A stretch of DNA of 64,000 nt from a virus. The stretch lies in the IMG/VR virus record IMGVR_UViG_3300046673_000068, positions 1 through 64,000 of that record. One strand, written 5' to 3'. How positions within the stretch are numbered: the first letter of the stretch is position 1; each line of letters opens with the position of its first letter. Of the stretch, positions 2-63,248 are shown piece by piece. The translations under genes were made by a program, and so were the position numbers. A model generated the notes under the pieces. That model saw only the letters and a program-made list of their open reading frames with translations, ran no database searches and was not told the DNA's origin.

Positions 2-115
2 TCGTGCAAGACGAAAGGCAAGCTCCGCAACCATCCAAAGGGCATTGGACGCGCCGAAACAAGAGAGCCGTCTATGACCATAATCCGGCACGAAGCCGGG
101 CAACTGTCCGGGTAA
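2..115 (+). CDS. 3' end of an unidentified gene (cut by window start)
   Basis: An open frame enters from the left edge and ends at the TAA inside the first copy of the 15-bp dyad repeat. The 37 visible residues are basic and end in EAGQLSG. Several complete genes in this window also take their stop from a repeat copy, which supports this reading. Too little is visible to assign a function. A second open frame also crosses this stretch, so the call is moderate. Confidence 0.45.
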   Translation, partial: SCKTKGKLRNHPKGIGRAETREPSMTIIRHEAGQLSG

Positions 116-120
116 TGGAC
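106..120 (+). repeat. 15-bp dyad repeat GTCCGGGTAATGGAC
   Basis: First copy of the dispersed dyad. It lies between two genes and its TAA ends the upstream partial frame. Confidence 0.9.
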
Positions 121-159
121 TTCTCACTCAGTCTCACGGCGCTCAGGAGGGCGCGAAAC

Positions 160-483
160 ATGGACAAGATCAGGGCGCAGCGGGCAATCGAGGGTGTGCT
201 GGCGCAGTTCGACTTTGAGCCGGTACACGATCACATGTTACGGGTCAACTGGCAGTATTCGTCAGATTCTATGCGGGAACCCTCGGCGGTTCCGGGCATC
301 GACCGGCTCAAGGATATGGCGCGGGAAGTCCTTCAATCGGCGGTTTACGGGAAGTATTGCACCGAGGGCCACGCTTCCGTTAGGTGCGGCGGGTTTGAGG
401 CCCGGATTGACAGATGGCCGAACTCTGACACTTTCACGATGGCCCTTTCTTTCGTTCCGTTCCGCACCGAGGAGAGATTCTAG
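160..483 (+). CDS. Hypothetical phage protein, 107 aa
   Basis: Start chosen at the ATG after AGGAGGG (144-150), giving a protein beginning MDKIRAQRAIEG. The frame is open further upstream, and the ATG of the repeat at 106-120 is in frame (MDFSLS), but it lacks a ribosome binding site. The sequence is mixed charge with no membrane segment or recognised motif. It is the first complete gene of a run of small accessory genes. Function unknown. Confidence 0.7.
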   Translation: MDKIRAQRAIEGVLAQFDFEPVHDHMLRVNWQYSSDSMREPSAVPGIDRLKDMAREVLQSAVYGKYCTEGHASVRCGGFEARIDRWPNSDTFTMALSFVPFRTEERF

Positions 484-484
484 C

Positions 485-498
485 CGGGCGTAAGCCCG
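485..498 (+). other. Short intergenic hairpin with GTAA loop
   Basis: CGGGC and GCCCG pair around a GTAA (GNRA-type) tetraloop directly after the stop of the 107-aa gene. There is no T-run, so it is not a classical terminator. Similar small GC hairpins follow other genes in the left arm (about 3050, 4188, 8337), suggesting mRNA processing or stability elements. Confidence 0.4.
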
Positions 499-557
499 TA
501 ATGCGCCGATGGTCCGTCTCAAGTCGGACAGGTGGAAAGCAGAGAGCGGAGGAAACA

Positions 558-1187
558 ATGGAAACCACGATTCCCTTTACCGGATTTTACGAATCGGACC
601 ACGAGTCACTGATCGAGAACGAATTGGAGCAGATGTTCTCGGACAATAACGGCGACCCTTTGCCCAGTGCGGGCGACTCCTGGGAACACATCGACTGGGC
701 CAAAGTCCATCTGGCCTATGCTCAAGAGTACGCGGGGCAGTTCTTCGCGCTGCTCTCGGACGCGGCGAAGATCAAGATTCCATACAAGTTTGTGGAGTTG
801 ACTTCGCCCGGCTCCTACAACTTCACAACTGATCGAATTTTCTGCACGGTTTCGCAACGCACGGCGCGGGCCTTGTACAAGCTGGCGGACAAAACCGCGC
901 TGGACAAGCTGATCAGAGACAAATTCACGTCCTATGACGGGTTCACGTCCTACTATGACAATTCCCTCACGGCATGGCCGAAAGACGTTTTGAAGTGGGA
1001 CGCAAACCAGATCGGCACCCTGGTGGAGTCTGTTTTCTTCCAGTTCTTCGCCCGGAAGGACTTCCACGCATACGAAATGATGGTAGATGAAAACGGCGAG
1101 ATCGACTCCCTGCTGTATGACGCCTTGGACGCGGAAGGGCGCAAGATTCTCAAAACCGAGAGAGCAACGGCAGACGGCGAAGAGTAG
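558..1187 (+). CDS. Conserved phage hypothetical protein, 209 aa
   Basis: Start at the ATG after GGAGG (550-554); an in-frame ATG 19 codons upstream lacks a good site. The N-terminus METTIPFTGFYESDHESLIE, the block HIDWAKVHLAYAQEYAGQFF and the later SYNFTTDRIFC resemble a family of phage proteins of unknown function that I recognise only by pattern. Acidic, soluble, no membrane segment. Its stop TAG overlaps a degenerate copy of the dyad repeat. Confidence 0.75.
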   Translation: METTIPFTGFYESDHESLIENELEQMFSDNNGDPLPSAGDSWEHIDWAKVHLAYAQEYAGQFFALLSDAAKIKIPYKFVELTSPGSYNFTTDRIFCTVSQRTARALYKLADKTALDKLIRDKFTSYDGFTSYYDNSLTAWPKDVLKWDANQIGTLVESVFFQFFARKDFHAYEMMVDENGEIDSLLYDALDAEGRKILKTERATADGEE

Positions 1188-1201
1188 TTCATTACCCGGA
1201 C
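1187..1201 (-). repeat. 15-bp dyad repeat, reverse orientation (GTTC variant)
   Basis: GTTCATTACCCGGAC, one mismatch in the left arm. It starts at the last base of the upstream stop codon. Confidence 0.75.
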
Positions 1202-1252: not shown

Positions 1253-1501
1253 ATGGACCACCAAAAACTAGCACGGATTAACAACCTGGGGCGCGAAATT
1301 ATGGCCCTGGAATCACGGCTGGCTTCTGTCCAGTTTCACATTCAGGCCGCACGCGAGCGTTTGAATGAAGACAACCTGACTTTCCGGGATTGGAGCGAAG
1401 CCGCGCACGAGTACGGCGTATCCTCCGCTTCTGCCTTTGCCCTTGACCACCGCTTGACTATCGTCCGGGGCCGGTTTCACTTCGAGGCGGACACGATTTA
1501 G
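1253..1501 (+). CDS. Small coiled-coil hypothetical protein, 82 aa
   Basis: ATG follows GGAGG (1243-1247). Residues 1-45 are helical with heptad-like hydrophobics (LARINNLGREIMALESRL), suggesting a coiled coil. No known family recognised. Its TAG stop shares its G with the first base of the next dyad repeat, an arrangement seen again at 23281, 47284 and 49142. The hairpin just upstream could attenuate its expression. Confidence 0.7.
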   Translation: MDHQKLARINNLGREIMALESRLASVQFHIQAARERLNEDNLTFRDWSEAAHEYGVSSASAFALDHRLTIVRGRFHFEADTI

Positions 1502-1515
1502 TCCATTACCCGGAC
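1501..1515 (-). repeat. 15-bp dyad repeat, reverse orientation
   Basis: GTCCATTACCCGGAC. It overlaps the stop codon of the 82-aa gene and lies 21 bases upstream of a -35 box. Confidence 0.9.
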
Positions 1516-2119: not shown

Positions 2120-2134
2120 GTCCAGATAATGGAC
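2120..2134 (+). repeat. 15-bp dyad repeat GTCCAGATAATGGAC
   Basis: Intergenic copy. Its ATG (2129) is in frame with the next gene, whose preferred start lies 21 bases downstream. Confidence 0.9.
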
Positions 2135-2753: not shown

Positions 2754-2768
2754 GTCCAGGTAATGGAC
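2754..2768 (+). repeat. 15-bp dyad repeat GTCCAGGTAATGGAC
   Basis: Perfect consensus copy between the zinc-ribbon gene and the next small gene. Confidence 0.92.
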
Positions 2769-3400: not shown

Positions 3401-3415
3401 GTCCATTACCTGGAC
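3401..3415 (-). repeat. 15-bp dyad repeat, reverse orientation
   Basis: GTCCATTACCTGGAC, perfect consensus, 16 bases before the start of the hexapeptide-repeat gene. Confidence 0.92.
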
Positions 3416-4243: not shown

Positions 4244-4258
4244 GTCCAGATAACGGAC
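4244..4258 (+). repeat. 15-bp dyad repeat, one mismatch
   Basis: GTCCAGATAACGGAC, intergenic. Confidence 0.8.
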
Positions 4259-4910: not shown

Positions 4911-4925
4911 GTCCATTAACCGGAC
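4911..4925 (-). repeat. 15-bp dyad repeat, reverse orientation
   Basis: GTCCATTAACCGGAC, in the leader between the 4833 promoter and the 63-aa gene. The next copy to the right is 3.8 kb away. Confidence 0.9.
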
Positions 4926-8326: not shown

Positions 8327-8336
8327 CGCAGATGGG

Positions 8337-8688: not shown

Positions 8689-8924
8689 TACTCTCAACCC
8701 CAACGTGTGACACTCTCGGCTGCACGAAGACTCACACAGCCTCGAACGGTTGGTGGGTTGTCCGGGTAGTGGACTTTTACAAAGAACTCTGGAAGTGGGA
8801 GGACGCAGAAGCCGTGGGCGTACTCAAGGGCCCGAAGACCTTCCACTTCTGCGGGCAAACGCACGCTCTACAGTTTCTATCCTCAGAGATGGGGAGCAAG
8901 ACAGATAAACCGGAGGAGAAATGA
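8685..8924 (+). CDS. Hypothetical protein, 79 aa (TTG start)
   Basis: Coupled by a TTGA overlap to the previous gene; GGAGG lies 5 bases upstream, a short spacing. CDTLGC and FCGQTH may bind zinc. The segment VVRVVDF is encoded by an internal dyad-repeat copy. Overlaps the next gene by ATGA. Confidence 0.55.
   Translation: MILSTPTCDTLGCTKTHTASNGWWVVRVVDFYKELWKWEDAEAVGVLKGPKTFHFCGQTHALQFLSSEMGSKTDKPEEK
8760..8774 (+). repeat. 15-bp dyad repeat inside a gene, one mismatch
   Basis: GTCCGGGTAGTGGAC, read as VRVVD in the host gene. Confidence 0.8.
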
Positions 8925-10198: not shown

Positions 10199-10428
10199 AA
10201 CACGTCATTGTGATTGAAACCTCGGACGACCGGCCCCTGAATAAGCGGACGCTGTGTCTATTCCGAGCGCAAGCTATCTGCGCCCTTCACGACCTGGCGA
10301 CAAAGTACGTGGGTTTGTCCTTCATTAACACGCGGTTCAACGTATCGTCCGCCACCGTCGCTATTCACGAAATGTACAATCTACCGCCCTGGAACCCGGA
10401 AACGGGAACCAGCGAGTCGTCCAGGTAA
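10195..10428 (+). CDS. Hypothetical protein, 77 aa
   Basis: ATGA overlap with the GIY-YIG gene. Sequence MKHVIVIETSDDRPLNKRT; no known motif. Its stop is the TAA inside the dyad repeat at 10419, so the last codons (TCC AGG) come from the repeat. Confidence 0.6.
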   Translation: MKHVIVIETSDDRPLNKRTLCLFRAQAICALHDLATKYVGLSFINTRFNVSSATVAIHEMYNLPPWNPETGTSESSR

Positions 10429-10433
10429 TGGAC
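10419..10433 (+). repeat. 15-bp dyad repeat GTCCAGGTAATGGAC
   Basis: Perfect copy; supplies the stop codon of the 77-aa gene. Confidence 0.92.
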
Positions 10434-10746: not shown

Positions 10747-10761
10747 GTCCAGGTAATGGAC
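10747..10761 (+). repeat. 15-bp dyad repeat GTCCAGGTAATGGAC
   Basis: Perfect copy directly before a duplicated leader (10765-10795). Confidence 0.92.
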
Positions 10762-11188: not shown

Positions 11189-11203
11189 GTCCATTAGCCG
11201 GAC
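11189..11203 (-). repeat. 15-bp dyad repeat, reverse orientation, one mismatch
   Basis: GTCCATTAGCCGGAC. It precedes the second copy of the 31-bp leader, in the orientation opposite to the repeat before the first copy. Confidence 0.82.
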
Positions 11204-11764: not shown

Positions 11765-12877
11765 ATGTCCAATTTAATCAAACGCGGAGCCTCTTACCAC
11801 CTGGACCTCACATCCGGGGGGAGAAGGCTTCGCTTCTCTCTGGGCACACGCCTCCCCCAGGCCGCTCGAACCCTGGCGCGTCAGATCGAGTGCGCTATCG
11901 CTGGCGGGCCCAAGGCAGAGGAGTGGGAAGTTTTGAAGCTGGTCCTGCCCCCCAAGAGCTTCGCAATCTTGGCCTCGGGCCGGGGTCTCACGGCGCAGCC
12001 AAACATGGCAGAATTTGAAACCCTCTTTCAAGAAAAACTTGACCGGCGAGTGAAGCTCGGGGAGTTGGCGGAGAGCAGCCGGAACTTGTACCTGTGGGCG
12101 GCGGACAGGTTCTTCTCCCGCATGGCTGAACTCAAAGTCCGGAAAATGGACGCCGTTACCCCGACTCTGGCCGAGGAGTATTTGATATTCAGGAAAGAAG
12201 CCACGTTGGCCAAAGGCGGCTCGGGGCGCGGGCTTGTGACCGAAACCACCGTACTCCAAGCTGTCTTCAACCTAGCCGTGGAAGAAGGACTCATCAAGAG
12301 CAGCCCCTTGCGGAACAAGTACAAACCAGATTCAGACCCCAAAGGCCCAGACCCATTTACACCGGAAGAGATCGCCAAACTCGACGCGGCGGCTACTGGA
12401 CCAGACAGACTGCCCTTCCTTTTGCTGAGATGGACCGGCCTGAGAGGATCAGACGCGGTGACGGTGCGCTGGTCGTCCATTAACTGGACAGACAGAAAGC
12501 TGCACGTTCAAACTAGGAAGAGAAAGACCTGGGTGGTTGTTCCGCTGTACGGCGAACTGTTGGAGACGTTGGAGGCTGTCTATCTTGGCCGCACCGGAAC
12601 TGTATCGGGGGCAGACGACTCTCCCATTCTGTTCGGGCTCTCTCGCGCCAAGCTGTACAAACTCGTCGCTGACTTGGGCATCCGTGCCGGAGTCAAGAAC
12701 TGCCACCCCCACAAATTTCGGGCCTCCCTCGCCTGTACGCTACTCGAACGAGGAGCGACTCTATTCGACGTAGCCAAACTGCTCGGGGACTCACACGCGG
12801 TCGTTGAGAAATTTTACGCAGCAACAACAGACAAGCAGCAGGAACGAATCCGTGGTATAATGGAAAAGTCCGGGTAA
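11765..12877 (+). CDS. int: Tyrosine recombinase / integrase, 370 aa
   Basis: Catalytic residues are visible: R227 in TGLRGSDA, K252/K254 in the RKRK turn, H316-x-x-R319 in CHPHKFR, H344 in GDSH and the nucleophile Y351 in VVEKFYA. Residues 80-170 fit the core-binding (SAM-like) domain and 1-60 an arm-type N-terminal domain, as in phage integrases. It cuts and rejoins DNA through a 3'-phosphotyrosine link. The stop is the TAA of a dyad-repeat copy. Suggests a temperate lifestyle or a resolution function; no attachment site is identifiable here. Confidence 0.93.
   Translation: MSNLIKRGASYHLDLTSGGRRLRFSLGTRLPQAARTLARQIECAIAGGPKAEEWEVLKLVLPPKSFAILASGRGLTAQPNMAEFETLFQEKLDRRVKLGELAESSRNLYLWAADRFFSRMAELKVRKMDAVTPTLAEEYLIFRKEATLAKGGSGRGLVTETTVLQAVFNLAVEEGLIKSSPLRNKYKPDSDPKGPDPFTPEEIAKLDAAATGPDRLPFLLLRWTGLRGSDAVTVRWSSINWTDRKLHVQTRKRKTWVVVPLYGELLETLEAVYLGRTGTVSGADDSPILFGLSRAKLYKLVADLGIRAGVKNCHPHKFRASLACTLLERGATLFDVAKLLGDSHAVVEKFYAATTDKQQERIRGIMEKSG
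12475..12489 (-). repeat. 15-bp dyad repeat inside the integrase gene
   Basis: GTCCATTAACTGGAC, read as SINWTD between the catalytic R and K. Confidence 0.88.
12856..12861 (+). promoter_or_regulatory. Extended -10 element (TGGTATAATGG) at the integrase end
   Basis: CGTGGTATAATGG matches the extended -10 seen at 13257, 18181, 22791 and 35884. The dyad repeat at 12868 begins exactly where transcription would start. No clear -35. Confidence 0.5.
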
Positions 12878-49938: not shown

Positions 49939-52900
49939 TTATAGGTTCTCCCGTTTGGCGATCAACCCAATTGTGCCCGTCATTCGAAGCGACCTGGTGT
50001 CCTGTTATCGGATGAGTTGCCGTGTGAAGATACTGTTGGACGCCCGCGTTAAGATGTGCTGCTTCTTGCTGAACCGCAGGAGGAATAACAGGAGCGGGTG
50101 CCGCCGATGCTTGCGGGATTCCCCCTGGGTGCATCATGTTCAGAATCCTCTGGAGCACCGGGTCCTTGGCTCTTTCAGAGGGAGTCATGTCCTTCATGGC
50201 CTTGGCTGTGTACCGTTTCATCACCGACTGAGTTAAGGGGATGAGCGCGGTTTTCTCGCTGTTGTTCATTGTATCGAACAGCTTGAAAAACTCAGCAGCG
50301 GGCAGCCTAGATGCTCTCGTGTACAACGAGGCCATCGTGGAGTCCATGCCTTTTGTCTTGGTCAGGTTGAGTTGGATTTTCTTCAGTTCGGACTCTTTGA
50401 GTTGGTCTGTGTTATAAGCCAACTTGACCAACTCCGGCCACGAAGTTTCCCCGGACCTTACCTGATCTTCCAGGTCCATGATTCTCCGGTGCCTGTCCAT
50501 TTGAGCCTTGTCTATCGGGCCGTCTTCGTTGTGATTTGCGGCAAGCTCGGCTGCCATCTTCTGTGCAGGAGTAGCGTACACTTGGGCGGTTCCGCCCCCC
50601 GCTTTCCAAACCTGGCCCACGGTTCCAACTTGGGGCCCGGTTCCGGTGACAGCCTGTCCGATAGCCTGTCCAGGGATAGGCATCATGTTGTGGAACACGT
50701 CAGCCCACAGGTCTTCCGGACCTAGCTTACGCCCGAAGGAGTCGCGCTGCGTCAGTAGTTCTTGTCCGGCATGAATTGTGGGCGACAACCGGCCCTTGAT
50801 GAAGCCCACAGGGTCTGTAGCAGCGTGAAGAAGGTCAGTCGGCAACGTCCTCATCCCGAAGATGATTTCCTTGCCTTCCTTGTTCTTGACAGCCAAGCCG
50901 AAGGGGGCTTCCAAGTGCGGACTTCCCGTGGACAAGGTGTTGAGGACTCTTGCGATTCCCCACATTCCCAGGGTCATCATCACGACCTGTTTGCGGCCTA
51001 TGTTACCTTCTTCTCGGTTGAAGAGTCGGGCCCCACTTCTCATTTCCGATTCTAACCAGTCCGGGGCCAGAAGCATTAAGCGGCCCCAGTCCTGCGTAGT
51101 TGTGGAGCGCCCCATCGCTCTCCAATTGATACCGCCAAAACTTTCGTTTGCGTGCAGAGCCGCAGCTTTGGCCACGCGGTCATTGGACCACTCTGGGTGA
51201 GACGCTCGGTACTGGTCAAACAAGTGCTCGCCCGCCGTCGCTTTCATGGCAGGAATGTAACGTTTGAACAAGAAGTCCTGATACCAGTTCATGGAGTTGG
51301 CAATTGTGTTTCCAATTCCTGGAATCCTGCGCAAGGCATCACCCCCCGTGGACAAGCCTTCGGACATCTGTTGTTGGCCCCGGAAGTCCGTTCCAGTGGT
51401 GTAGCCCTGGCGAACCATTGCCAGGAGCTTCGTTTCTGAATGTGGATTAGATGGGTCGATCTTAGCCCCATCCAAAAGGTCAGGTCCGTGGAGAGTAAAC
51501 GGGTTGATCCCAGTCATCACACCACGGAGCCCAATCTGGACCATGTGGAATGGAGACAGAGACAGCAGGACATGCTTAGCCGCAGACCCCGCGCCCAACA
51601 ACGCTTTGCCTATGGGGTTTTTGGCGATTCCAGACTCTTCCAAGCCCAGCCTGTTCTTCAGGTACTGAGCAAATTCGGGGTGGGCCTTGATGTCGGCATC
51701 AACTAGGATACCGTGCCCGGCGGAGTCGTTGGTCACAAAGTTCCAGCCGCGCATAGCGTTGTGATCCAGCGTGACGTAGTCCTGCGGGTCCCAGGCATAG
51801 ACGGGCTTCTGTGCGCCGTTGAACTCGCGCAGGCCCGAGTAGTCTTTGTTCGCCAGCATGGACTTCAGGTACATGAGGTCGGTCCGAAGTTTATTGTTTC
51901 CCATTTCGTCGTACTGTGCGTTCTTACTCAGAGCCTGCTTTTCCAGACGATCAATTGCCATCCCGATGTTGTCCGGATGAACGTGGGGCGTTATGTCCTT
52001 GATGGTGCCGTCGGCCAGGAAGCGGTCGAAGTACCCCGTCTTCTTCATTTCGTCAATGTTGCTCTGCGCGATGTTGATTTTCTGCACGCGGTCCGGGGAG
52101 ATGAATGTCTTGGGGTCTTCCCCGTCTTGACCAGTTACAACTCTGCCCGATCCCGCGAGAACCACCGCCGGTCGGCCATCGCTTCCCCGGGAGAAATCGT
52201 CTCTCAGGCTACGAATGAACTGCCGGTTGGCTGCGGCCTTGATGATTTCGGCTCTGCCCCTGGCCATGTTGTTCACTATGTCGAACTTCAACTGCTTGGG
52301 GGATTTCAACAGCCCGGTCAAGGTTGAGTCATATACGCGGCGGCGTGCCATCGTTACGTTGGTGGCAAACTTTCCGTTCTTGGCATCAGAGGATATAACT
52401 CGACCTTCCGGGTTGGAGTTATCCCATGTCCGCTGGAAGTAGTCGTCGATGTAGTGTTGCAATATGTCGTTTGTCGAGCCTATTTCGAAGCTGCGGTCGT
52501 GCTCGTTCCTGATGAAGTCCATTGCGGATTTCATCTGGGGGTCAGGCGCGGTGGTTGCCGCTTTCCTATGCACACTCATCACCAAGTCCCGGTATTCCTT
52601 GGGCTTGTCTTTGAAGACGTTATTCTGGATCATGTCGTCGATGTTCGGCGGGAGATGTCCATTATCCGGACTTTCTCTTGAGAACAGCGGCTGACCTTGA
52701 TGCAGGACAGACTCACGCATGGAATCTGTGATGGGGAAGTAGGGAACAGCAGAAGTTTTGACTTCCTTTTGGATATTTAACTTTCCGCCGATTTTTTCTG
52801 CGTAGGCTTCCGATCCAAAATCCCGTACAGCTTCTGCAAAAGGAATCCGGCTATAACGCACTTCATAAGCAACAGCCCGGGCTTGCCCCTCAAGTTGAGT

Positions 52901-55900
52901 TCCTTCTGCTTCCGAAGCTATTTTGTCTAGGTCCGCTGTCGATAGGGTCGGTCCCTCATATATTCTTGTTTTAGACCCGTCAGATACCTTGATCTTCGTC
53001 TCCCCAACCTTAGCCCCAAACTGTTTTCCAAGTTTGTTGGCAACCTGCGGGGTGATCTGATCGTAGTAGCTTTCGAATCCTTCCTTCCGGGGCATGCTCG
53101 CTCCGGTTGGCTCTGTCTGCATCCGATCCCAGAGTTTCTTGGTGACAGCGTCTACCTTCTCACGACCAGCAATATGCAGGACCCGGTGTACAATTGCTCT
53201 CAGGTCGGCTTGGGACTTTACTTGTCCTCCACTTTTGTTGAGCAATCCCCGGCGCGTAGCTTCGCCTTCTAGATCAACCCCTCCGGCATTTCCGCCGTGC
53301 TGATATGTTCCAGCAACCGTCCATTTTCCGTCTTCGGTCTTTTCCCAATCGAAGCGTTCCGACCCCCACCGGTTGAAGTGTTCAACTCCCGGGGTCCACG
53401 AGATTCCATCATATCCGTTTTCGGCGGCGTATCGGATCATTCTCTTGAAGAATAATCCGGTCCATTCGTCTGTCTTCTTGAAGGGGGCGTCGGGGACTCC
53501 AGAATGGACAGTCTCTTTGCTGATTTCGTTCAGACGAGCCTGTAGCTCCGGATGAACGTCTCCGGCGTCCGGTCTTGTTGAGTGGGTCCGGTCGTATTCT
53601 CGGGGGTCTAGTTCTCCCGTTTCCGGGTCTATCGCATGAACCTTGACACTCCAAACACGATCCCATCCCTTTCCGTTGGGGTCTGCGGGATGGAAAGAGA
53701 TTACCTTGTCTTTTCCTCCGTAGCTGTTTACAATATTTCCTGGCTTGAAGTAGTTCGCAAGTTCTTCGTCGGTTACCGGGTCCTTCAGTCTTTCGCGGAG
53801 ATCGGACGCTTCCTTACGGAGACTCTCAATTCTTGCTGGGTCGAGATTGTACCCCTGTGTCCTTCCTTTCTGGTGCCAATCAGATTGCAGTTCTTCCAGG
53901 TGCAGCAGCTTCTCGCCGTTGGGGCCTGTGCGGTCGTTGAAGCGGACATGGCCTACTACGTTGGGTTCGTCCCAGTGAGCGGAGCGGAAGTCCTCGTTAT
54001 AATCGAATACATTCTTCGATTGCCCGTAGTTTGGAAGCGTCATCAACAACTCTCGGTACGAACCTGGTTCTGCTCCGGGGAGGGTGTATGTGCCGAATTT
54101 GGCGGGGTCAAATTTTTCTCCGGCATCCCACCTGTTTACCGCACTATCAACGACCTCTCTTTGGTCTTCAGAAAGACCACCATAATCTCTTCCATAAAGC
54201 TGTCTGGAAATCCTATCCGGCGGGGGAGTGTTTTCCTGTTTCGTAACCTCTTGTACCTGCAAGTTATTCGCCGCCAGGTAGTCCTTGACTTCTTCCGGAC
54301 GCACGGGGGCGCTTCCCTTCTCGCGGAGGAAGTCAGAGAGACCTGTGTATTTTAGCTCGTCCGGTTTTACGCCGTTGTTCTCCAGCATTTTGAGAACGGT
54401 GTCGGCGGGCATGGGTCCTTGCATCCGGCTATCAACTAGCTGGTTGGACTTCAAGTACCAGACGGGAGCGCGGTTATCCTTCTCTTTGGAAAACAGTCCA
54501 TTATCCGGACCGAATTCTGTGTCAAATAATGAAGCTCCTGATTTCCGAGCAAGGTGTGAGGCTATCCGCGAGTCTCTGCGGGCGGCTTCGAGTCTACCAG
54601 CCGCGTTAAGAAGTTCAGGACTAGAGCCCGCAGCTTCTCCGGTGGAAGGTTTTCTTGGGACGTAGGTTTCGAGTTTTGTGTCGAGGGCATTGAGGTCTCC
54701 TCCAAGTTTCTTGATTACGCCCCTGATTTCGGGGTTGGTTTTGAGCATGTCCGCAAAGTCAGCAGAGTGTTGGGCCACAAGTTCGGGTGTTAGCAGTCCT
54801 TGCTTGATAATTTCTTGCGGGGGTATCCAGCGGTCGTTCCCCCAACCAGACAGTTCGGCCAGAGATTTGATGAAGCACCAGATTGCGGCCTGCGCCTGGC
54901 GAGGCTCGACGCCCTCCGCCTTGGCCGCTTCGCGGACCTTGGCAGACATGGCGTCATAAACTGCTGGTTTGTTAATCCGATTCGGGTCGTGATCTCCGAA
55001 GACCGCCATCCAGGTGTCGTTTGTGACCCGGCTTGAATCCTTGCCCAGGTTCTTTGTGAAAGAAGATACCTTGGGGCCGGATAGAGGCTCTCCCTGTAAG
55101 GCGTGAATAGCGTTGCCCATTCTTGCAGGCAGGTCTACGCCTTGTGTTTCTCCACGACCGGCGAGAACTCTGTAGAGAGAAGCGTTCTTGCTGGCGACCT
55201 TCCCGTCTTTCCAGGTTACGTCCTGGGGGCGGCCCGCCTTGTCCCACTTGGCCCAGAGGTTGAGGGCCATGCGCAGGTTGGCTTGAACCGGCTGAACCGG
55301 GGATAGAGCGGCGGTAAAGTTCAGGAACTTGTCTTTGTCCGCTTTCCCCAGCCACGGAATTCCAGAGTCGATCAGAGCGTCGAAGGCCCGGGTCGATCTT
55401 TCATACCACAACTGTCCGGCTTTGCCCGCACGAATAGCAGCCGTCCACTCTTCGTGGTCGGGCATGGAGTTGAAGGCGGCGGTGAGCAGGTTCTGCTTTT
55501 CGGGTGTGTCGTGCTTCTGAACTTCCTCTGGGGTAAGGTGGGACTTGATGTCTTCCCACTCTGCGGGTTTTTCTCGGGAAGCCAGTCCGGATAATGGACT
55601 GATTGGTTCTCCGCGAAGAGCAGCTTTTTGAACGGCTTCCCCGCCTTGGTATGAGTCTACCCGTACCCCTTGTCCGGGTTCGTAAGGTCCTTTGTACGTT
55701 GGGTCATACGCCATGAACACAACGTCGGGATGGCCACCGTTGTACTGCTTCATTTTGTCGTAGTTCCAACCTTCGGGGGCATATGCGTCATTCCACGGAA
55801 GACGAGCCACGACCTTCATTCCCTCCCGAGCGTTTATTGCCGGAAGGTAGGTATCGAATCCGTCGGACCGACGCCCTCCATTTTCAATAGCAACGCGCAT

Positions 55901-58900
55901 CAAATTGGCATTAGCTCTTGGGGTATCAGTAGGATGAGAGAACTTCGACACAATAAGGTCTCCATCCAGAGCGATTCCGGTCTTTCCGTCCGGGCTCATA
56001 AAGGTTTTCATTCCTTTATACTCTTCTGGAGAGTAGACAGAAAGCTGCTGATCCGCTCCGGAGGACTCGTGCGCTTTCTTGACTTGGGAAATAGCAGAGT
56101 GGAACTTCTCCGCCGACGTTGGCACTATGCCATAGTCACGGAAAACTTTGACAGGTTCGAAGGATTTGACTACGTTTTGGGCTCTGTACCCGGAGAAGCC
56201 TTTTTGCTGAAGCAGCTTTTCGAGGTTATATTCAATCGGATCGCCATTTTTGCGAGTTAATTTGCGGGCCTGGTCTACAAGACTGAGCGGGTCTTTCGCC
56301 CTGTCGTAGATTTTGTTGTAGTCAAGGTTCGCAAAATACTTCTTGGAGTTTCCCTGGACAGCGGGTTCTCTGTAGGATTCTTCTCCGAAGTACGTTCCTG
56401 GAACCTGTAAACGATCCCGTTCGGCCCCGCGCACACCTGTTCCTGCCAACTCCGGGTTGGTTTCCGTGAAGTCTGGTTTTCTGCTCCAATGGTAGACGCG
56501 GCGAAGGTCCTTGTTTTCGTCCAGTTCCCGGACGCGGGAAGCTAGACCTTGCTGTTTTCCTTTAGTAGGCTCAAATCGAACTTCAGCCTGAGTGCCCTCA
56601 GATTCTGCTGCTTTGGTAGCTTCTTCGTGGGTTGGGAAAGAATCTAGGAGATGGCCTTCCCCGTCGTAGACGTACCATTCTCCTTCAGCACCTTGGCCAG
56701 CCCCGCCTTCCCCTCCTTCTTCCAGGCGTCGTACACTTCCAGCGCCCGTTCCTTGCTCGGCCAACCCACTTGCTCTTGCTTCTGCTGCTTGTCTTTCGGC
56801 ATAAATGTCCTCCACGTGTTGTCTTGCAATTTCGTTGATGCGGGCAAATTTCTCCCGCGCTTGGGGTCCGTGCTTGGCTTCAAGTTCCTTGAAATACTCA
56901 TCTAGGAAATTGATTCTCTCTGTTTTTGATGCGCCCGTGTCCACGCCCGCCTGATATTTAGCAGCGGTCTCGGCCACACGAACAACCGGGTTTTGGTCAT
57001 AATCCAGCGAATCAAAATATGAATGAGTCACTGTTGGTATTATACCATGTAAACGGTCCCAGGGGGAACCCGGTTCCACTTTAATTTCTCCGCTTGGAAG
57101 CCTTGTGGCCCCGTCTAGGAGGTTGTATACCTCCCCGTTTTGGGAGAGCCATCTTTGCTCGGCGTGTTGAGCTTCTTCTTGTGCAACTAGAATTGAAAAC
57201 TCAGGATTCTCCCCCGGGGTTTTGAGGACAGATGTAGGTCCGGCGAGTTGACGGGCCTTGGAAATCAACTGTCCGATTGAACTCTCTGGATTGAAACGAC
57301 TTAGGAGGATGTCCGCTTCCCTCGGAGAGTAGTTTACGCCCGTGCCCGGAGCTTGAGCAATCGTTTGAAAGTCGCCGTAATCTTCTGGACTGAGCCAAAC
57401 AACAGGCCGACCATCTGAGCCTACACGCACTTCTCCCGAAGAGGTAGTAGCAACGGACTTGGTTCCTGCTCTCGGCGGGGCTTCGTTGTCGGCTAGAGGG
57501 GTTCCCAGCGGGGCCGGTATGGGCTGGTACTCTCCACCACCTTGGGCTTCAACCAAAACGTTATGTAGTACCCGCGCCTTTTCCGGGTCGGTTTCTGTCG
57601 CTATACGGGTTTGGCATTCGGCGAGGCGCTCGGTATTGAAGGCTTTATCCTCTTTGGACAAACCGAGAACTGGGTGTGCTTTTCGGAGACCTAGCAGGTC
57701 GAAGGCTGTGTTGTACTTGTTGACAGCGTCCTGCTCAGCGACCGCGTGGGCGGCCTCCCTGTCCTTGTTGACTCTCTCTATTGCCAACCAGCGGTCGGAC
57801 AGCCTGGGAACGTCTGTGGAGCCTAGCAGGGGGTTAAACAACTCGCCCGCCGAGCGCAAAGCGTGCGGGGCCCCCAAAGCTCCCATAGCCCCGGAGGCGA
57901 ACATTTCTGTTCCATATTCCCAAGCGTGATCGGCGTCCCCTTCTTTCAGGGCGTCGAAGAACCGGGGCGACATCTGAGCCGCTGTTTCCAACTGTTGGTA
58001 GGTGAATCCCCAGTTCATCACAGTGTTCGCCGTGTCGGCGGCCTTGGTCAGGGCCCCAAAAGACACATCGGGCGCTGCTTTGTGCAGAATCTGGAAGGCT
58101 CCTCTTTGGAGAAGGTTTCCTCCCAGAAGGTCCTTGGTCACGTCCAGTTTTTTATCGGACAGTATGGCAGTTGCTTTTTTCCAATTGTCTACGTTGTACC
58201 CGGCGTCACGAACCGCGTCAGCCAGGGGGAGGAAACCGGACTTGGCTTTGGCTACCGTATCGCCCGTATCCGACAGAGCCTTCAGTTCGTCGGTGGAAAA
58301 CCCGGGCATCTTTGTGTTCGCCGTGGCGATAGCAGACCTTTCCGCTTCGGAAAGTGTTCCTTCCTTTAGGGCAGTCCTCTGTGCTTCGCTCAAGCCTACT
58401 TCAGACAGGTTCTTCTGAAGTTCTTCCGAGGCTAGTTCTGCGTCCCTGTTGATGGGGAAGGTTAGAGCCCGGGCTCGTTCCAACAAACCCAGGTCGTGTC
58501 CGCCCGCTTTCAGGGCACCAGAGATGACCGGCTCAATATCGGGCATACTCTTGGCGGTCTTCAGCGCGATTTTTGACGCACTTATGGCGTCGGCGATCTG
58601 AGCGGCGGTAAATTCCCCAGACTCTTTGAGCGCAGTTTCGCCCGCTCCGGCGATAAATCCTCCGGAGCCGAAAGTTGCGGCAGCTAGAGCCAGCGAAAGT
58701 GGACTCGTGAGACCCGCCGCGATGTGCTCCACACCGCGCCCAAACCCGCCCATTCCCAAATCTTCGGGAAGACCAAAGACAGAGGAGTCGAGCAGGGGGG
58801 TGTTCGCCCAATCCCAAGCGCGAGAGTACCAGCTTTGACTTGGGTCTTGGTACAAGTGCTGAGGAGGAGTGGCGGGGCCAACAGATTGTTGTCCATTACC

Positions 58901-59062
58901 CGGACTAGAAGCGGAAGAACCCCCAAATAATAGGCCAAACGCAGAAGACCCAGAACCCCCAACAGCCGGGGCCGCTGCGCCAACGGCGGCCTCTCCTGTC
59001 GAAGGAGTCTGGGTTTCTTTGTTTTCCGAAGAGAAAAGCAGGGAGTAAGCTGAATCGGGCAT
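49931..59062 (-). CDS. Giant polyvalent internal virion protein, 3043 aa
   Basis: Very long protein with features of phage large polyvalent proteins, which are thought to be injected with the DNA. The N-terminal 140 residues are Gly/Ser-rich with a hydrophobic stretch. ILVAQEEAQHAEQRW (about 630) resembles a zincin site lacking its first His. VYHWSRKPDF to YFGEESY (about 857-890) resembles an ADP-ribosyltransferase-like module. LHLEELQSDWHQKGRTQGY (about 1720) and RMIRYAAENGYDGISWTPG (about 1875) are hallmarks of LPD domains. WGRLMLLAPDWLESEMRSGA (about 2660) marks a C-terminal LPD. Order in the operon parallels T7 gp16. RBS AGGACA. Confidence 0.88.
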   Translation of the reverse strand: MPDSAYSLLFSSENKETQTPSTGEAAVGAAAPAVGGSGSSAFGLLFGGSSASSPGNGQQSVGPATPPQHLYQDPSQSWYSRAWDWANTPLLDSSVFGLPEDLGMGGFGRGVEHIAAGLTSPLSLALAAATFGSGGFIAGAGETALKESGEFTAAQIADAISASKIALKTAKSMPDIEPVISGALKAGGHDLGLLERARALTFPINRDAELASEELQKNLSEVGLSEAQRTALKEGTLSEAERSAIATANTKMPGFSTDELKALSDTGDTVAKAKSGFLPLADAVRDAGYNVDNWKKATAILSDKKLDVTKDLLGGNLLQRGAFQILHKAAPDVSFGALTKAADTANTVMNWGFTYQQLETAAQMSPRFFDALKEGDADHAWEYGTEMFASGAMGALGAPHALRSAGELFNPLLGSTDVPRLSDRWLAIERVNKDREAAHAVAEQDAVNKYNTAFDLLGLRKAHPVLGLSKEDKAFNTERLAECQTRIATETDPEKARVLHNVLVEAQGGGEYQPIPAPLGTPLADNEAPPRAGTKSVATTSSGEVRVGSDGRPVVWLSPEDYGDFQTIAQAPGTGVNYSPREADILLSRFNPESSIGQLISKARQLAGPTSVLKTPGENPEFSILVAQEEAQHAEQRWLSQNGEVYNLLDGATRLPSGEIKVEPGSPWDRLHGIIPTVTHSYFDSLDYDQNPVVRVAETAAKYQAGVDTGASKTERINFLDEYFKELEAKHGPQAREKFARINEIARQHVEDIYAERQAAEARASGLAEQGTGAGSVRRLEEGGEGGAGQGAEGEWYVYDGEGHLLDSFPTHEEATKAAESEGTQAEVRFEPTKGKQQGLASRVRELDENKDLRRVYHWSRKPDFTETNPELAGTGVRGAERDRLQVPGTYFGEESYREPAVQGNSKKYFANLDYNKIYDRAKDPLSLVDQARKLTRKNGDPIEYNLEKLLQQKGFSGYRAQNVVKSFEPVKVFRDYGIVPTSAEKFHSAISQVKKAHESSGADQQLSVYSPEEYKGMKTFMSPDGKTGIALDGDLIVSKFSHPTDTPRANANLMRVAIENGGRRSDGFDTYLPAINAREGMKVVARLPWNDAYAPEGWNYDKMKQYNGGHPDVVFMAYDPTYKGPYEPGQGVRVDSYQGGEAVQKAALRGEPISPLSGLASREKPAEWEDIKSHLTPEEVQKHDTPEKQNLLTAAFNSMPDHEEWTAAIRAGKAGQLWYERSTRAFDALIDSGIPWLGKADKDKFLNFTAALSPVQPVQANLRMALNLWAKWDKAGRPQDVTWKDGKVASKNASLYRVLAGRGETQGVDLPARMGNAIHALQGEPLSGPKVSSFTKNLGKDSSRVTNDTWMAVFGDHDPNRINKPAVYDAMSAKVREAAKAEGVEPRQAQAAIWCFIKSLAELSGWGNDRWIPPQEIIKQGLLTPELVAQHSADFADMLKTNPEIRGVIKKLGGDLNALDTKLETYVPRKPSTGEAAGSSPELLNAAGRLEAARRDSRIASHLARKSGASLFDTEFGPDNGLFSKEKDNRAPVWYLKSNQLVDSRMQGPMPADTVLKMLENNGVKPDELKYTGLSDFLREKGSAPVRPEEVKDYLAANNLQVQEVTKQENTPPPDRISRQLYGRDYGGLSEDQREVVDSAVNRWDAGEKFDPAKFGTYTLPGAEPGSYRELLMTLPNYGQSKNVFDYNEDFRSAHWDEPNVVGHVRFNDRTGPNGEKLLHLEELQSDWHQKGRTQGYNLDPARIESLRKEASDLRERLKDPVTDEELANYFKPGNIVNSYGGKDKVISFHPADPNGKGWDRVWSVKVHAIDPETGELDPREYDRTHSTRPDAGDVHPELQARLNEISKETVHSGVPDAPFKKTDEWTGLFFKRMIRYAAENGYDGISWTPGVEHFNRWGSERFDWEKTEDGKWTVAGTYQHGGNAGGVDLEGEATRRGLLNKSGGQVKSQADLRAIVHRVLHIAGREKVDAVTKKLWDRMQTEPTGASMPRKEGFESYYDQITPQVANKLGKQFGAKVGETKIKVSDGSKTRIYEGPTLSTADLDKIASEAEGTQLEGQARAVAYEVRYSRIPFAEAVRDFGSEAYAEKIGGKLNIQKEVKTSAVPYFPITDSMRESVLHQGQPLFSRESPDNGHLPPNIDDMIQNNVFKDKPKEYRDLVMSVHRKAATTAPDPQMKSAMDFIRNEHDRSFEIGSTNDILQHYIDDYFQRTWDNSNPEGRVISSDAKNGKFATNVTMARRRVYDSTLTGLLKSPKQLKFDIVNNMARGRAEIIKAAANRQFIRSLRDDFSRGSDGRPAVVLAGSGRVVTGQDGEDPKTFISPDRVQKINIAQSNIDEMKKTGYFDRFLADGTIKDITPHVHPDNIGMAIDRLEKQALSKNAQYDEMGNNKLRTDLMYLKSMLANKDYSGLREFNGAQKPVYAWDPQDYVTLDHNAMRGWNFVTNDSAGHGILVDADIKAHPEFAQYLKNRLGLEESGIAKNPIGKALLGAGSAAKHVLLSLSPFHMVQIGLRGVMTGINPFTLHGPDLLDGAKIDPSNPHSETKLLAMVRQGYTTGTDFRGQQQMSEGLSTGGDALRRIPGIGNTIANSMNWYQDFLFKRYIPAMKATAGEHLFDQYRASHPEWSNDRVAKAAALHANESFGGINWRAMGRSTTTQDWGRLMLLAPDWLESEMRSGARLFNREEGNIGRKQVVMMTLGMWGIARVLNTLSTGSPHLEAPFGLAVKNKEGKEIIFGMRTLPTDLLHAATDPVGFIKGRLSPTIHAGQELLTQRDSFGRKLGPEDLWADVFHNMMPIPGQAIGQAVTGTGPQVGTVGQVWKAGGGTAQVYATPAQKMAAELAANHNEDGPIDKAQMDRHRRIMDLEDQVRSGETSWPELVKLAYNTDQLKESELKKIQLNLTKTKGMDSTMASLYTRASRLPAAEFFKLFDTMNNSEKTALIPLTQSVMKRYTAKAMKDMTPSERAKDPVLQRILNMMHPGGIPQASAAPAPVIPPAVQQEAAHLNAGVQQYLHTATHPITGHQVASNDGHNWVDRQTGEPING
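52657..52671 (-). repeat. 15-bp dyad repeat in the giant gene
   Basis: GTCCATTATCCGGAC; on the minus strand it reads SPDNGH. Confidence 0.92.
54496..54510 (-). repeat. 15-bp dyad repeat in the giant gene
   Basis: GTCCATTATCCGGAC; on the minus strand it reads GPDNGL. Confidence 0.92.
55585..55599 (+). repeat. 15-bp dyad repeat in the giant gene
   Basis: GTCCGGATAATGGAC; on the minus strand it reads SPLSGL, so this copy is inverted relative to the other three in the gene. Confidence 0.92.
58891..58905 (-). repeat. 15-bp dyad repeat in the giant gene
   Basis: GTCCATTACCCGGAC; on the minus strand it reads SPGNGQ. Confidence 0.92.
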
Positions 59063-60895: not shown

Positions 60896-61290
60896 TATTT
60901 GTTCTCCAAGAAGTAGCTAAGTGGTGTGGTCCGGGAAATGGACGTGTCTTTCAGGGCCCTCTTCAGGAACTTCAAAATCTGATCTTGTCCAAGTTTTTCA
61001 TTGAATCCCAAGACCCTCATAAGGTTTTCGAGTTTGTCGTCCTTTTTAATACCGGCGCGAGACTCCCCTTTGATCTTGATCTCCAGGTCAAAGCAAGAAG
61101 CACGATACCCGGCGAGCCACGACGTAAACAACCTCATGCCTTTTTCATCTATCGAGTTTTTGCCCGGGCGACTGAAGTTCAAGACTCCAATTGGATTACG
61201 AGCCTGGTAGAGGTCTCCATCGGGGTTTGTGGTTGCCCCTTTGAGGTGCGCCAAAGCATCAACTAGGGCTTCTACGCGATTAACGGACAT
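60895..61290 (-). CDS. Hypothetical virion-operon protein, 131 aa
   Basis: MSVNRVEALVDALAHLKGAT and GMRLFTSWLAGYRASCFDLE; helical. Contains a dyad-repeat variant near its end (TSISRTT). RBS AGAAGG. No known family. Confidence 0.66.
   Translation of the reverse strand: MSVNRVEALVDALAHLKGATTNPDGDLYQARNPIGVLNFSRPGKNSIDEKGMRLFTSWLAGYRASCFDLEIKIKGESRAGIKKDDKLENLMRVLGFNEKLGQDQILKFLKRALKDTSISRTTPLSYFLENK
60929..60943 (+). repeat. 15-bp dyad repeat in a minus-strand gene, one mismatch
   Basis: GTCCGGGAAATGGAC; on the minus strand it reads SISRT. Confidence 0.8.
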
Positions 61291-61344
61291 GGCGTACCTT
61301 CTCTCTGTGCTTTTGCTTTTGCGAGTAAGTATTCAAACATCAGG

Positions 61345-62058
61345 CTATCCTCCCGACATCACTTTAGCGGCCCCGCCCATAGCTCCGGTAGCCAGACCCA
61401 TGATGTTGTTCATCTCTTCTTGGTTGGCAGCCTGAACGGCGTTGGCCTCGGAGTTGGCGGAGTTGCTCATGCCCGTGGCGGCGTTGGCCATACCCGTAGC
61501 GTTTTGCTGACCGGCCACACTTAGTTCTCCGGATAAGGCGTTGTTGTAGTTCTGATAGCCTTGGTTGTAGCTGGCTTGCAGGTTTTGGGTCAGGCCGGAT
61601 TGGGTTTCGTTTGCGGCGGCGGTTGCGAGGGTGGCCGCTTGCTGCGAAGCTACGCCGGAGGGCAGCATGGAGTTTCCTCCACCTTGGGCGGCTTGGTTTT
61701 CTTGCAGAGTCTTTTTCGCCGAGGCGTACTGCTGTCCAGTATTCTGAATCACCGAGGAGTTCAGGGTGTTCATTTCCTGCGTGTTGTAGCCCTGCTGGTT
61801 CGAACCCGCAGCGATTACAGAAGCGAACGTCGTGTTCAAAGACCCCAGGATGCTTTGGTTCGCCGCAAACTGTGTGTTTACGTCGTCAAGATAAGTCTTT
61901 TGCGCGGCAAGCTCGGCGTCCTGAGCTTGTGTTTGGGCTGCCGAAGCACCTTTCAGGAGAGCAAAGGGGCCCGTCCGGGTAATGGACTTTTCATAGAGCA
62001 GGATATAGCGGGATTGGCGCTCGCTCCAAACATAGACTGCTTTTGTAGTGACCTTCAT
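61345..62058 (-). CDS. Internal virion protein candidate (gp14-like), 237 aa
   Basis: Ala/Gln/Asn-rich helical protein (AAQTQAQDAELAAQKTYLDD, QAATLATAAANETQSG) with a Gly/Met-rich hydrophobic C-terminus (NNIMGLATGAMGGAAKVM). Composition, size and operon position resemble podophage internal virion proteins. ATG follows the upstream TAA directly. Contains a dyad repeat (SITRT). Confidence 0.65.
   Translation of the reverse strand: MKVTTKAVYVWSERQSRYILLYEKSITRTGPFALLKGASAAQTQAQDAELAAQKTYLDDVNTQFAANQSILGSLNTTFASVIAAGSNQQGYNTQEMNTLNSSVIQNTGQQYASAKKTLQENQAAQGGGNSMLPSGVASQQAATLATAAANETQSGLTQNLQASYNQGYQNYNNALSGELSVAGQQNATGMANAATGMSNSANSEANAVQAANQEEMNNIMGLATGAMGGAAKVMSGG
61973..61987 (+). repeat. 15-bp dyad repeat in a minus-strand gene
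   Basis: GTCCGGGTAATGGAC; on the minus strand it reads SITRT. Confidence 0.92.
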
Positions 62059-62469
62059 TTAGCCCTCTAATTCTCTGATCTTAACGCGGTAAACGGACCA
62101 AGGCAGCTTCTCAAAGACTTCCTGGTTCGTTGTCATGTGGTTCGTTCCGTCCTGTGTCCCCAGGAAATAAATCTCACCCACGCCCTTGAGGTGGGCTTGC
62201 GTAACCGTCTCCTGAAATAATTCTTTCATCGCGGTTGCAATTTGAAGCTTGGTGGCTCCCGGGCGGGCGGCGAAGCTGTCCATTATGAACGCTTGCTGAA
62301 TCGGTTGGTAGGCCAAGGCCCCGTCTTTGTCGTAGGCGCAGAGCACGAACGTAGACGGGTATTTGACAACCTCCGGGTCGAACTCGTTGTCCGGGGTCTC
62401 CAGGGACCAGTCTACAAATTTCTTCGTATCGTCAGGTTTTGCAGGCCGCACGAAAACAAGATTGTGCAT
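62059..62469 (-). CDS. GNAT-like / internal virion protein candidate, 136 aa
   Basis: Start chosen at MHNLVFVRPAKPDDTKKFVD after GGAGAAAC; a longer frame begins upstream without an RBS. The N-terminal RPAKPDD and the ATKLQIATAMKELFQETVTQ helix resemble GNAT-fold phage proteins found before internal virion genes. No acetyl-CoA loop is convincing. Confidence 0.66.
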   Translation of the reverse strand: MHNLVFVRPAKPDDTKKFVDWSLETPDNEFDPEVVKYPSTFVLCAYDKDGALAYQPIQQAFIMDSFAARPGATKLQIATAMKELFQETVTQAHLKGVGEIYFLGTQDGTNHMTTNQEVFEKLPWSVYRVKIRELEG

Positions 62470-62483
62470 TGTTTCTCCTTTAA

Positions 62484-62870
62484 CTATTTCCAAAAATGCC
62501 CTACGGCGTACATTATGGCGGCTAAGAACAAGGGCCAAAACTTTTCCAGCAAGCTCTTCTCACCGGACGAAGAGTCACGACTTGCCCGCAGGTCGTCTAT
62601 CTCCTCGCAAAGCCGCTGATGCTCCCGGTCGTACACCTCTCGCTTGACAAAGTCCGCCCGGTCTTCGGCGAGTTGTTCCTTTGTCCTGTTTAGGTGTACC
62701 AAGTGAATATCAGTTGCTGCCTTCGCCAAATCAAGAGCTTTGGCTTCCAGCCGATGGGTCTCCGGGTGCTGATCCTGCCACTTCTCAACCACCGCCAGGC
62801 GAACAAAGATCGACGGAAGAGCGGCGTGAACCTTCTCGAATTCTTTTGAAAGGTGATCTATGTCGGTCAT
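62484..62870 (-). CDS. Coiled-coil protein with C-terminal membrane anchor, 128 aa
   Basis: MTDIDHLSKEFEKVHAALPS and a long charged coiled coil end in a membrane segment FWPLFLAAIMYAVGHFW. ATG directly follows the previous TAG. Layout resembles small phage membrane proteins sometimes annotated as holin or spanin parts; unproven. Confidence 0.64.
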   Translation of the reverse strand: MTDIDHLSKEFEKVHAALPSIFVRLAVVEKWQDQHPETHRLEAKALDLAKAATDIHLVHLNRTKEQLAEDRADFVKREVYDREHQRLCEEIDDLRASRDSSSGEKSLLEKFWPLFLAAIMYAVGHFWK

Positions 62871-63239
62871 CTACGGCATCCTTGAGAGTAAGATGTTGAT
62901 GCTGTCGCTTAAACGAGAAAACCCGTCTCGTAGGTCTTCTCGCAAGCCGTATAAAGCGTCGTTGGTCTTGTCCAGCTTATCGTTGGTCTTTTCCTGCTCG
63001 GCTTGAATGTGCGCTAAATGGTTGTCTTTGATTTGGACAAGGTCGCCGCTGGCGGTATCAAGCTTATCCCCGTATTTTTCAAACTTACGGGCGACAGAAT
63101 ACAGCCGCTGAAGAAATAGCAGGAGCGCAGCCCAGCCCGCAACATACTGCCAGTTTTGAGAGAGCCACACACCGGGGTTCCAAGGAGAATTAAACATTTG
63201 TCGGCCTAAAGCAAGGGATGAGTCTCTAACGTAGTCCAT
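62871..63239 (-). CDS. Membrane plus coiled-coil protein, 122 aa
   Basis: Start codon is the ATG of a dyad repeat (minus-strand reading GGATAATGGAC). One membrane helix near residues 30-45 (YVAGWAALLLFLQRLY) and a coiled coil (DKLDKTNDALYGLREDLRDG). Pairs with the next gene, mirror-like in topology. Confidence 0.64.
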   Translation of the reverse strand: MDYVRDSSLALGRQMFNSPWNPGVWLSQNWQYVAGWAALLLFLQRLYSVARKFEKYGDKLDTASGDLVQIKDNHLAHIQAEQEKTNDKLDKTNDALYGLREDLRDGFSRLSDSINILLSRMP

Positions 63240-63248
63240 TATCCGGAC
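63234..63248 (-). repeat. 15-bp dyad repeat at a minus-strand gene start
   Basis: GTCCATTATCCGGAC; on the minus strand its ATG starts the 122-aa gene. Confidence 0.92.

Follow-up and report, generated by a model that had tools for sequence, protein, structure and literature searches.

An evenly dispersed 15-bp dyad in a group of large soil phages, a possible operator network of a phage-encoded ParB-type protein

What role does a short imperfect dyad play when it recurs at more than fifty places in one phage genome? This question was raised by a 64,000-nucleotide stretch of viral DNA (positions 1 to 64,000 of the IMG/VR virus record IMGVR_UViG_3300046673_000068; hereafter the window), in which a 15-bp element with near-invariant GTCC/GGAC arms and an asymmetric centre occurs approximately once per 1.2 kb. 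The phages that carry this mark are a group of large soil phages with 50 to 115 evenly spaced copies each. The 15-mer is very probably a selected protein-binding site, whichever protein binds it, and there is about an even chance that the copies form a set of operators spread over the whole genome and bound by a ParB-type protein of the phage itself, whose effect would probably be on transcription and stoperator-like.

A scan of the window allowing up to two mismatches to GTCCRGRTAATGGAC returned 56 matches (35 on the plus and 21 on the minus strand), close to the 54 copies (34 and 20) reported in an earlier note made from the sequence alone, whose description of the arms and centre was also confirmed. 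Dinucleotide shuffles of the window, a control proposed in the same note, gave a mean of 0.30 matches (maximum 2), and the excess stands. The whole record (68,442 bp) contained 33 exact, 22 one-mismatch and 3 two-mismatch copies (58 in total). Three-mismatch copies numbered just 3, among them an existing site in reverse reading; this near-absence indicates a sharply bounded set, in which copies are either good or gone. The edges of the 15-mer were sharp, with weak information outside them (G is avoided at -1 and C at +16/+17). Among the positions previously listed as decayed copies, 39558 proved real but weak (15.5 bits) and 34188, which reads gtccgaatagtggca, is plausible, while 8349 was rejected, as it falls within a Twister-P5 self-cleaving ribozyme (8327-8386, plus strand; RF02684, 46.9 bits, E 2e-6). 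The sites are given below in window coordinates; all come from the scan except the weak dyad, and "aligned" marks those also found in the comparison of aligned relatives.

106..120, +, dyad GTCCGGGTAATGGAC, 39 nt upstream of a start codon, kept in relative G005
1187..1201, -, dyad GTCCGGGTAATGAAC, aligned
1501..1515, -, dyad GTCCGGGTAATGGAC, adjoins a TAG stop, aligned
2120..2134, +, dyad GTCCAGATAATGGAC
2754..2768, +, dyad GTCCAGGTAATGGAC
3401..3415, -, dyad GTCCAGGTAATGGAC, aligned
4244..4258, +, dyad GTCCAGATAACGGAC, aligned
4911..4925, -, dyad GTCCGGTTAATGGAC, aligned
8760..8774, +, dyad GTCCGGGTAGTGGAC, aligned
10419..10433, +, dyad GTCCAGGTAATGGAC, aligned
10747..10761, +, dyad GTCCAGGTAATGGAC
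11189..11203, -, dyad GTCCGGCTAATGGAC, aligned
12137..12151, +, dyad GTCCGGAAAATGGAC, within the integrase open reading frame (ORF), aligned
12475..12489, -, dyad GTCCAGTTAATGGAC, within the integrase ORF
12868..12882, +, dyad GTCCGGGTAATGGAC, directly after a TATAAT-like -10, aligned
13281..13295, -, dyad GTCCAGGTAATGGAC, 11 nt upstream of a start
15401..15415, +, dyad GTCCAGGTAAGGGAC, aligned
15868..15882, +, dyad GTCCAGGTAATGGAC, 11 nt upstream of the DNA polymerase start, aligned
16986..17000, +, dyad GTCCGGGAAATGGAC, within the DNA polymerase ORF
19032..19046, +, dyad GTCCGGATAATGGAC
20661..20675, +, dyad GTCCGGGAAATGGAC, frame where T8 would give TAA, aligned
22108..22122, +, dyad GTCCGGGAACTGGAC, clamp-loader ORF, frame where T8 would give TAA, aligned
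23281..23295, -, dyad GTCCGGTTAATGGAC, aligned
24223..24237, +, dyad GTCCGGATAATGGAC, within a RecT-like ORF, aligned
25801..25815, -, dyad GTCCAGGTAATGGAC
27549..27563, +, dyad GTCCGGATAATGGAC, aligned
29378..29392, +, dyad GTCCAGATAATGGAC, overlaps the ATG of called ORF 29387-30238, aligned
30910..30924, -, dyad GTCCAGGTAATGGAC
31063..31077, +, dyad GTCCGGATAATGGAC, aligned
31531..31545, -, dyad GTCCAGGTAACGGAC
32708..32722, +, dyad GTCCGGATAATGGAC
34295..34309, +, dyad GTCCAGGAAATGGAC
34693..34707, +, dyad GTCCGAATAATGGAC
35676..35690, +, dyad GTCCAGGTAGTGGAC
35861..35875, +, dyad GTCCGGGTAATGGAT, directly upstream of a GTGGTATAAT -10 element
36715..36729, -, dyad GTCCGGGTAATGGAC, within the primase-helicase ORF
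37017..37031, -, dyad GTCCAGATAATGGAC, within the primase-helicase ORF
39118..39132, -, dyad GTCCGGATAATGGAC
39558..39572, +, weak dyad GTCCAACTAATGGAT, 15.5 bits
40810..40824, +, dyad GTCCGGATAATGGAC, within the candidate binder gene
41189..41203, +, dyad GTCCAGTTAATGGAC
42355..42369, +, dyad GTCCGGATAATGGAC
43537..43551, -, dyad GTCCAGTTAATGGAC
44960..44974, +, dyad GTCCGAATAATGGAC
45339..45353, +, dyad GTCCAGTTACTGGAC
47284..47298, +, dyad GTCCGGATAATGGAC, 10 nt upstream of a start
48268..48282, -, dyad GTCCGGTTAATGGAC
49142..49156, +, dyad GTCCGGGTAATGGAC
49908..49922, +, dyad GTCCGGATAATGGAC
52657..52671, -, dyad GTCCGGATAATGGAC, within a 9.1-kb ORF
54496..54510, -, dyad GTCCGGATAATGGAC, within the 9.1-kb ORF
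55585..55599, +, dyad GTCCGGATAATGGAC, within the 9.1-kb ORF
56519..56533, -, dyad GTCCGGGAACTGGAC, within the 9.1-kb ORF
58891..58905, -, dyad GTCCGGGTAATGGAC, within the 9.1-kb ORF
60929..60943, +, dyad GTCCGGGAAATGGAC
61973..61987, +, dyad GTCCGGGTAATGGAC
63234..63248, -, dyad GTCCGGATAATGGAC

The window belongs to a longer IMG/VR contig of 96,970 bp, G001 (99% identical), which has 80 sites. The earlier note had suggested a look at sister phages and named absence from close relatives as grounds for doubt; close relatives do carry the motif. In the form described above (class I) it was detected in about ten related lineages sharing 68-82% nucleotide identity, at 0.35-1.1 sites per kb, and 13 related records held 12-80 sites per genome against 0-2.3 expected. 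Many of the related contigs are fragments, and genes were called by an in-house script that performed poorly on some of the fragmentary contigs. The motif drifts between lineages, to GTCCGAATAATGGAC in G021 and mostly TTCCAGATAATGGAA in G022. The class I motif was not found in H120, a more distant but syntenic relative in an Acidobacteriota genome (capsid protein 80% identical), which carries a class II dyad, the palindrome GTYCGGAWTCCGRAC, in approximately 40 copies against 2-11 in the null. Class III phages, found by a search with an alignment of the phage protein g72 (see below), carry the dyad GTMCGGAAAACGKAY in 115 copies per 92,960 bp and 109 copies per 91,482 bp, respectively (null about 2.7). 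The nearest named isolate found, Tunturiibacter phage Tunturi_3 (an Acidobacteriota podovirus of 97.6 kb with 39% identity in the major capsid protein), was scanned and had neither the motif nor any comparable repeat.

Comparison of relatives indicated that the sites are under selection. Between G001 and G005 (82% identity) all 20 sites in aligned DNA were kept, as were 9 of 10 in the comparison with G017 (69%), 8 of 10 with G008 and 8 of 8 between G021 and G018; G022 kept just 1 of 4 aligned sites. Substitutions at 142 shared sites occurred at a rate of 0.046, compared with 0.171 in the flanks, with changes mainly at positions 5, 6, 7 and 11 and with T2, A9, G12 and A14 invariant. Sites within genes avoid the reading frame that yields TAA, or carry A in place of T8: in the coding frame where the consensus T8 would give TAA, all sites have A8 (8/8, P 2e-8), which argues that the site has been fitted into genes. 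A selfish or neutral repeat of REP/MITE type, spread without function, could produce many copies and the intergenic enrichment described below. Such a spread is contradicted by the conservation at orthologous positions, a sign of purifying selection, as well as by flanks that are not conserved beyond 15-17 bp, by the minimum spacing and by the reading-frame adaptation, and we give it almost no weight.

The selected element could in principle act as RNA, given that the sense strand would adopt a lambda boxB-like fold (a stem of 5 bp, GUCCR/UGGAC, and the pentaloop GRUAA) and might be bound by an antitermination-type protein, a reading that the bias towards the sense orientation would suit. Against it, the paired arm positions showed no covariation within any genome, in class III only about 30% of the sites had complementary bases at pair 3-13 (open in about 70%), and A5-C11 mismatches occur among the sites; moreover, sense and antisense copies were equally kept (103/113 and 42/48). 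The lack of arm covariation together with the conservation of antisense copies identifies the dyad as a DNA feature, and an RNA hairpin appears extremely improbable.

The sites were spaced more evenly than chance would give. In seven genomes, gaps shorter than 300 bp totalled 18, compared with about 86 expected from a location-matched control (approximately five times rarer), and six of the seven had a spacing more regular than random, as did more distant genomes. Orientation tracked transcription in all ten tested genomes with an asymmetric motif, and in two small flipped gene blocks. Sites lay along versus against genes at 47:29, 43:25, 29:17, 36:15, 21:9, 50:15 and 19:8 in the seven class I genomes and at 81:26 and 76:22 in class III, a bias of about 2:1 and of 3:1 to 3.5:1, respectively; as these genomes are related, a pooled P overstates the bias, and every lineage has the same sign. 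GC skew gave no decisive separation of replication direction from transcription direction. In the seven genomes, whose DNA is about 84% coding, 185 of 382 sites were located outside called genes (an approximately three-fold enrichment), many of them ending 10-19 nt upstream of a start codon, between the prior stop and the Shine-Dalgarno sequence. We read this start-proximal placement as leftover space in a compact genome and not as a translation signal. About half of the sites are genic, including five copies within one 9.1-kb gene, and the earlier comparison with start-associated sequences is not supported, given this and the fact that the start-proximal copies stop before the Shine-Dalgarno. 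A promoter-like element, GTGGTATAAT, was present at 16 places in G021 and at several in G001, G017 and G022, in some cases with a TTGACA-like -35; these elements lie mostly away from dyads, few promoter-like elements adjoin a site, and no conserved flank occurs at the -35 distance. The dyad was thus rejected as a promoter or sigma-factor site.

The main rival explanation holds that the sites organise the genome, the protein-site network folding, segregating, protecting or packaging the chromosome (Noc/NBS- or ParB/parS-like) with secondary effects on transcription. It draws on the even spacing across coding and non-coding DNA, including the five copies in the 9.1-kb gene, on the scarcity of promoter-like elements beside sites, on the predicted ParB/Noc-like fold of g72, and on the position of the g72 gene next to replication genes. 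Architecture alone, however, leaves the orientation bias along transcription unexplained; sites are enriched between genes, no ParA-like gene was found, and the g72 model has no ParB CTPase domain. On balance we judge genome organisation somewhat unlikely as the primary role. Packaging, which the earlier note had also proposed as a separate mark, is one of the roles in this explanation and may yet play a part; neither a packaging mark nor a recombination boundary, another of its suggestions, gained positive evidence.

Gene content was compared between all class I genomes tested, the class II genome and both class III genomes, on the one hand, and Tunturi_3 and three other dyad-less relatives, on the other. 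Out of 137 called genes of G001, only g69, g72 and g108 were present in all dyad genomes and absent from the four dyad-less relatives. The g108 product is a histidine phosphatase, located outside the window; the remaining candidates and a neighbour are as follows.

36609..38483, +, primase-helicase g69, family restricted to dyad-bearing relatives (gene-family comparison)
40393..41121, +, candidate binder g72, 242 aa, predicted ParB-type helix-turn-helix (HTH), recognition helix at about residues 87-99
41507..42025, +, phage sigma-factor-like protein g73, neighbour of g72, alternative DNA-binding candidate

AlphaFold models of g72 were nearly all-helical (pLDDT 75.6, then 80.9), and their best PDB matches in Foldseek were ParB/Spo0J-parS DNA-binding domains, with Noc lower (probability 0.66, rising to 0.89 once more sequences were included; E at least 0.24). 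In hhalign the helices of g72 fell on those of the ParB HTH (E 8e-4, probability 24.5), and the NCBIfam family borfam_49 (replication/partitioning protein) matched 10 of 17 g72 orthologs (best E 0.0024). These lines of evidence, each weak but repeated, jointly point to a predicted ParB-like HTH. The N-terminus of the model consists of two helices, with no ParB-type N-domain or CTPase domain; no ORF with KGGxGK[TS], as in a ParA-like gene, was found, and the named-phages collection contained no g72 relatives. DUF3102, a family considered for g72, was absent from the genomes searched. Across the recognition-helix region class I has RSQ-x-YA-x-LSVAE, class II has RTQLYHAVGVAE and class III has RT(A/V)LY(A/S)(Y/C)KSVA, differences that match the three motif classes. 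Judging from these comparisons and from its co-occurrence with the dyad, g72 probably binds the sites.

A different protein might read them instead: the primase-helicase, for which the sites would be start points of lagging-strand priming, spaced in an Okazaki-like manner; the sigma-like protein encoded at 41507-42025; or a protein of the host. The phyletic distribution of g69 is the same as that of g72, spacing is near 1.2 kb, and the sigma-like protein lies beside g72. The sigma-like gene, on the other hand, was undetected in the two class III genomes, host genomes show no enrichment of the motif, and the motif differs between phages of apparently one host group; primases and sigma factors are not known to read a 15-bp dyad on both strands. 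We regard another binder as improbable. The 166-aa product of g113 (85-95% conserved) was also tried as a binder and rejected, as it is the major capsid protein, interrupted by intron-like inserts. The major capsid gene (L247:345-1829 and around G001 79.6-81 kb, outside the window) is split by such inserts, which have homing-endonuclease-like ORFs and contain two dyad sites (G001 79700 and 80217).

Taking g72 as the candidate, the 15-mer would be a double-stranded recognition site for a single sequence-specific phage-encoded protein, most likely g72. That the class II motif is a palindrome suggests binding by a dimer, to which the asymmetric centre found in classes I and III would add a direction; a g72 dimer may thus sit on the GTCC/GGAC arms, with the centre lending direction to the protein-site complex. 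Occupied, evenly spaced and mostly co-oriented sites could then serve as operators or elongation roadblocks genome-wide. That the network acts in transcription is a reading we hold at slightly less than even. Still more tentatively, a CTPase-less viral relative of ParB/Noc domains, at 50-115 evenly spaced, transcription-oriented sites, may exert genome-wide elongation control or impose a chromatin-like order, binder and sites switching specificity together from lineage to lineage. The earlier suggestion of a repressor or nucleoid site recalling stoperators fits the data, in that the sites are conserved, even and transcription-oriented and change class together with a ParB-HTH-like protein.

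Several observations weigh against an operator network read by g72. Between 25 and 35% of the sites oppose transcription and are kept equally, a pattern not expected of a stoperator whose action depends strictly on orientation. The resemblance of g72 to ParB was below normal significance in each single test, and the protein had no Pfam match. Motif and g72 could have changed in parallel through shared descent rather than co-evolution, and the g72 gene lies within a replication cluster in which the primase-helicase g69 has the same phyletic pattern. In addition, no cI-like or HTH repressor family was found among 83 small proteins, and no chromosomal copy of the system in about 396 sampled Acidobacteriota genomes. 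The last two results, together with the patchy integrase listed here, leave prophage silencing unsupported.

11765-12877, integrase gene, patchy among relatives

The host phylum is likely Acidobacteriota, on the basis of one isolate and one metagenome-assembled genome contig. Among the matches listed, those in bacterial genomes were single, as by chance, and a host or uptake motif was rejected; the DNA uptake signal considered in the earlier note does not agree with the 1 copy per 3.7-6.1 Mb found in three Acidobacteriota genomes, which had been chosen for having a copy.

Other features of these genomes included a 3,043-aa ORF (window 49931-59062, minus strand; 52-63% conserved in the clade), whose C-terminal part had no PHROG match, and four tandem-repeat arrays with 12-24 bp units in coding DNA (window 3570-3930, 7153-7380, 11528-11731 and 18584-18827). 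Some small proteins match pentapeptide repeats. A phosphoadenosine phosphosulfate reductase auxiliary gene is located at window 5308-6192 (plus strand), and six tRNA genes are clustered at L247:15676-16238 (minus strand), towards the right-hand end of the 97-kb record.

On the reading favoured here, the dyad would function much as stoperators, KorB operators or NBS sites do. It has full membership of none of these known systems: it is a 15-bp dyad with more copies, half of them genic, and with no L5-type repressor, CTPase domain or ParA. The phiC31 CIR repressor sites and the P1 c1 operators, the latter asymmetric, are dispersed phage repressor sites with fewer copies than the dyad and other binders. 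Stoperators of cluster A mycobacteriophages (L5, Bxb1) are more than 20 dispersed, short, phage-specific and transcription-oriented sites, mostly in short intergenic gaps, whose motifs drift between related phages along with the binder (PMC9283540, PMC6550527). The dyad, too, is dispersed in more than 20 copies: the window has 56, the 97-kb record 80 and the class III genomes 109-115. Stoperators are 13-bp asymmetric sites, predominantly in one orientation and in short intergenic gaps, and stop transcription elongation when bound. The 15-bp dyad is palindromic in class II, shows a significant but partial bias (2:1 to 3.5:1) and is genic in half of its copies (185/382 outside genes). The L5-type binder is a monomer with an HTH plus a Stoperator domain, and no L5-type repressor was found among the 83 small proteins of the dyad phages; L5-type phages are temperate, with prophage silencing. 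The dyad phages have another host phylum and a patchy integrase.

The sites of Noc (NBS) and ParB (parS) are palindromes of 14-16 bp, those of Noc being scattered over the chromosome (PMC7383237, PMC4331003), and ParB/Noc specificity shifts via residues in and near the recognition helix (PMC7383237). Dyads are much denser and transcription-oriented, and their predicted binder has neither a CTPase domain nor a ParA partner. Relative to the palindromic site of ParB, Noc and KorB, class II is fully palindromic and classes I and III have symmetric arms with an asymmetric centre. KorB, a ParB-family protein of plasmid RK2, is a global transcriptional regulator acting at OB operators near and far from promoters (PMC11790492); OB sites differ in sequence and are far fewer, and no KorA or CTPase domain was detected in the dyad phages. 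Start-associated sequences of cluster K are 13-bp repeats with symmetric outer parts and an asymmetric centre, mostly in one orientation; they lie 3-7 bp from start codons, contain AGGAG and occur in 11-19 copies in the non-structural half only (PMC3203893), whereas dyads are upstream of the Shine-Dalgarno or genic, and genome-wide.

The dyad system opens the questions of how one protein and about 100 sites shift specificity together, and of whether even spacing serves transcription control or genome architecture. Dispersed phage operator networks are best known from actinobacteriophages; here an apparently independent one may be present in soil phages, probably of Acidobacteriota. Its sites are denser than stoperators, keep a minimum distance from one another and fall into three natural motif classes, and a candidate for the binder can be named.

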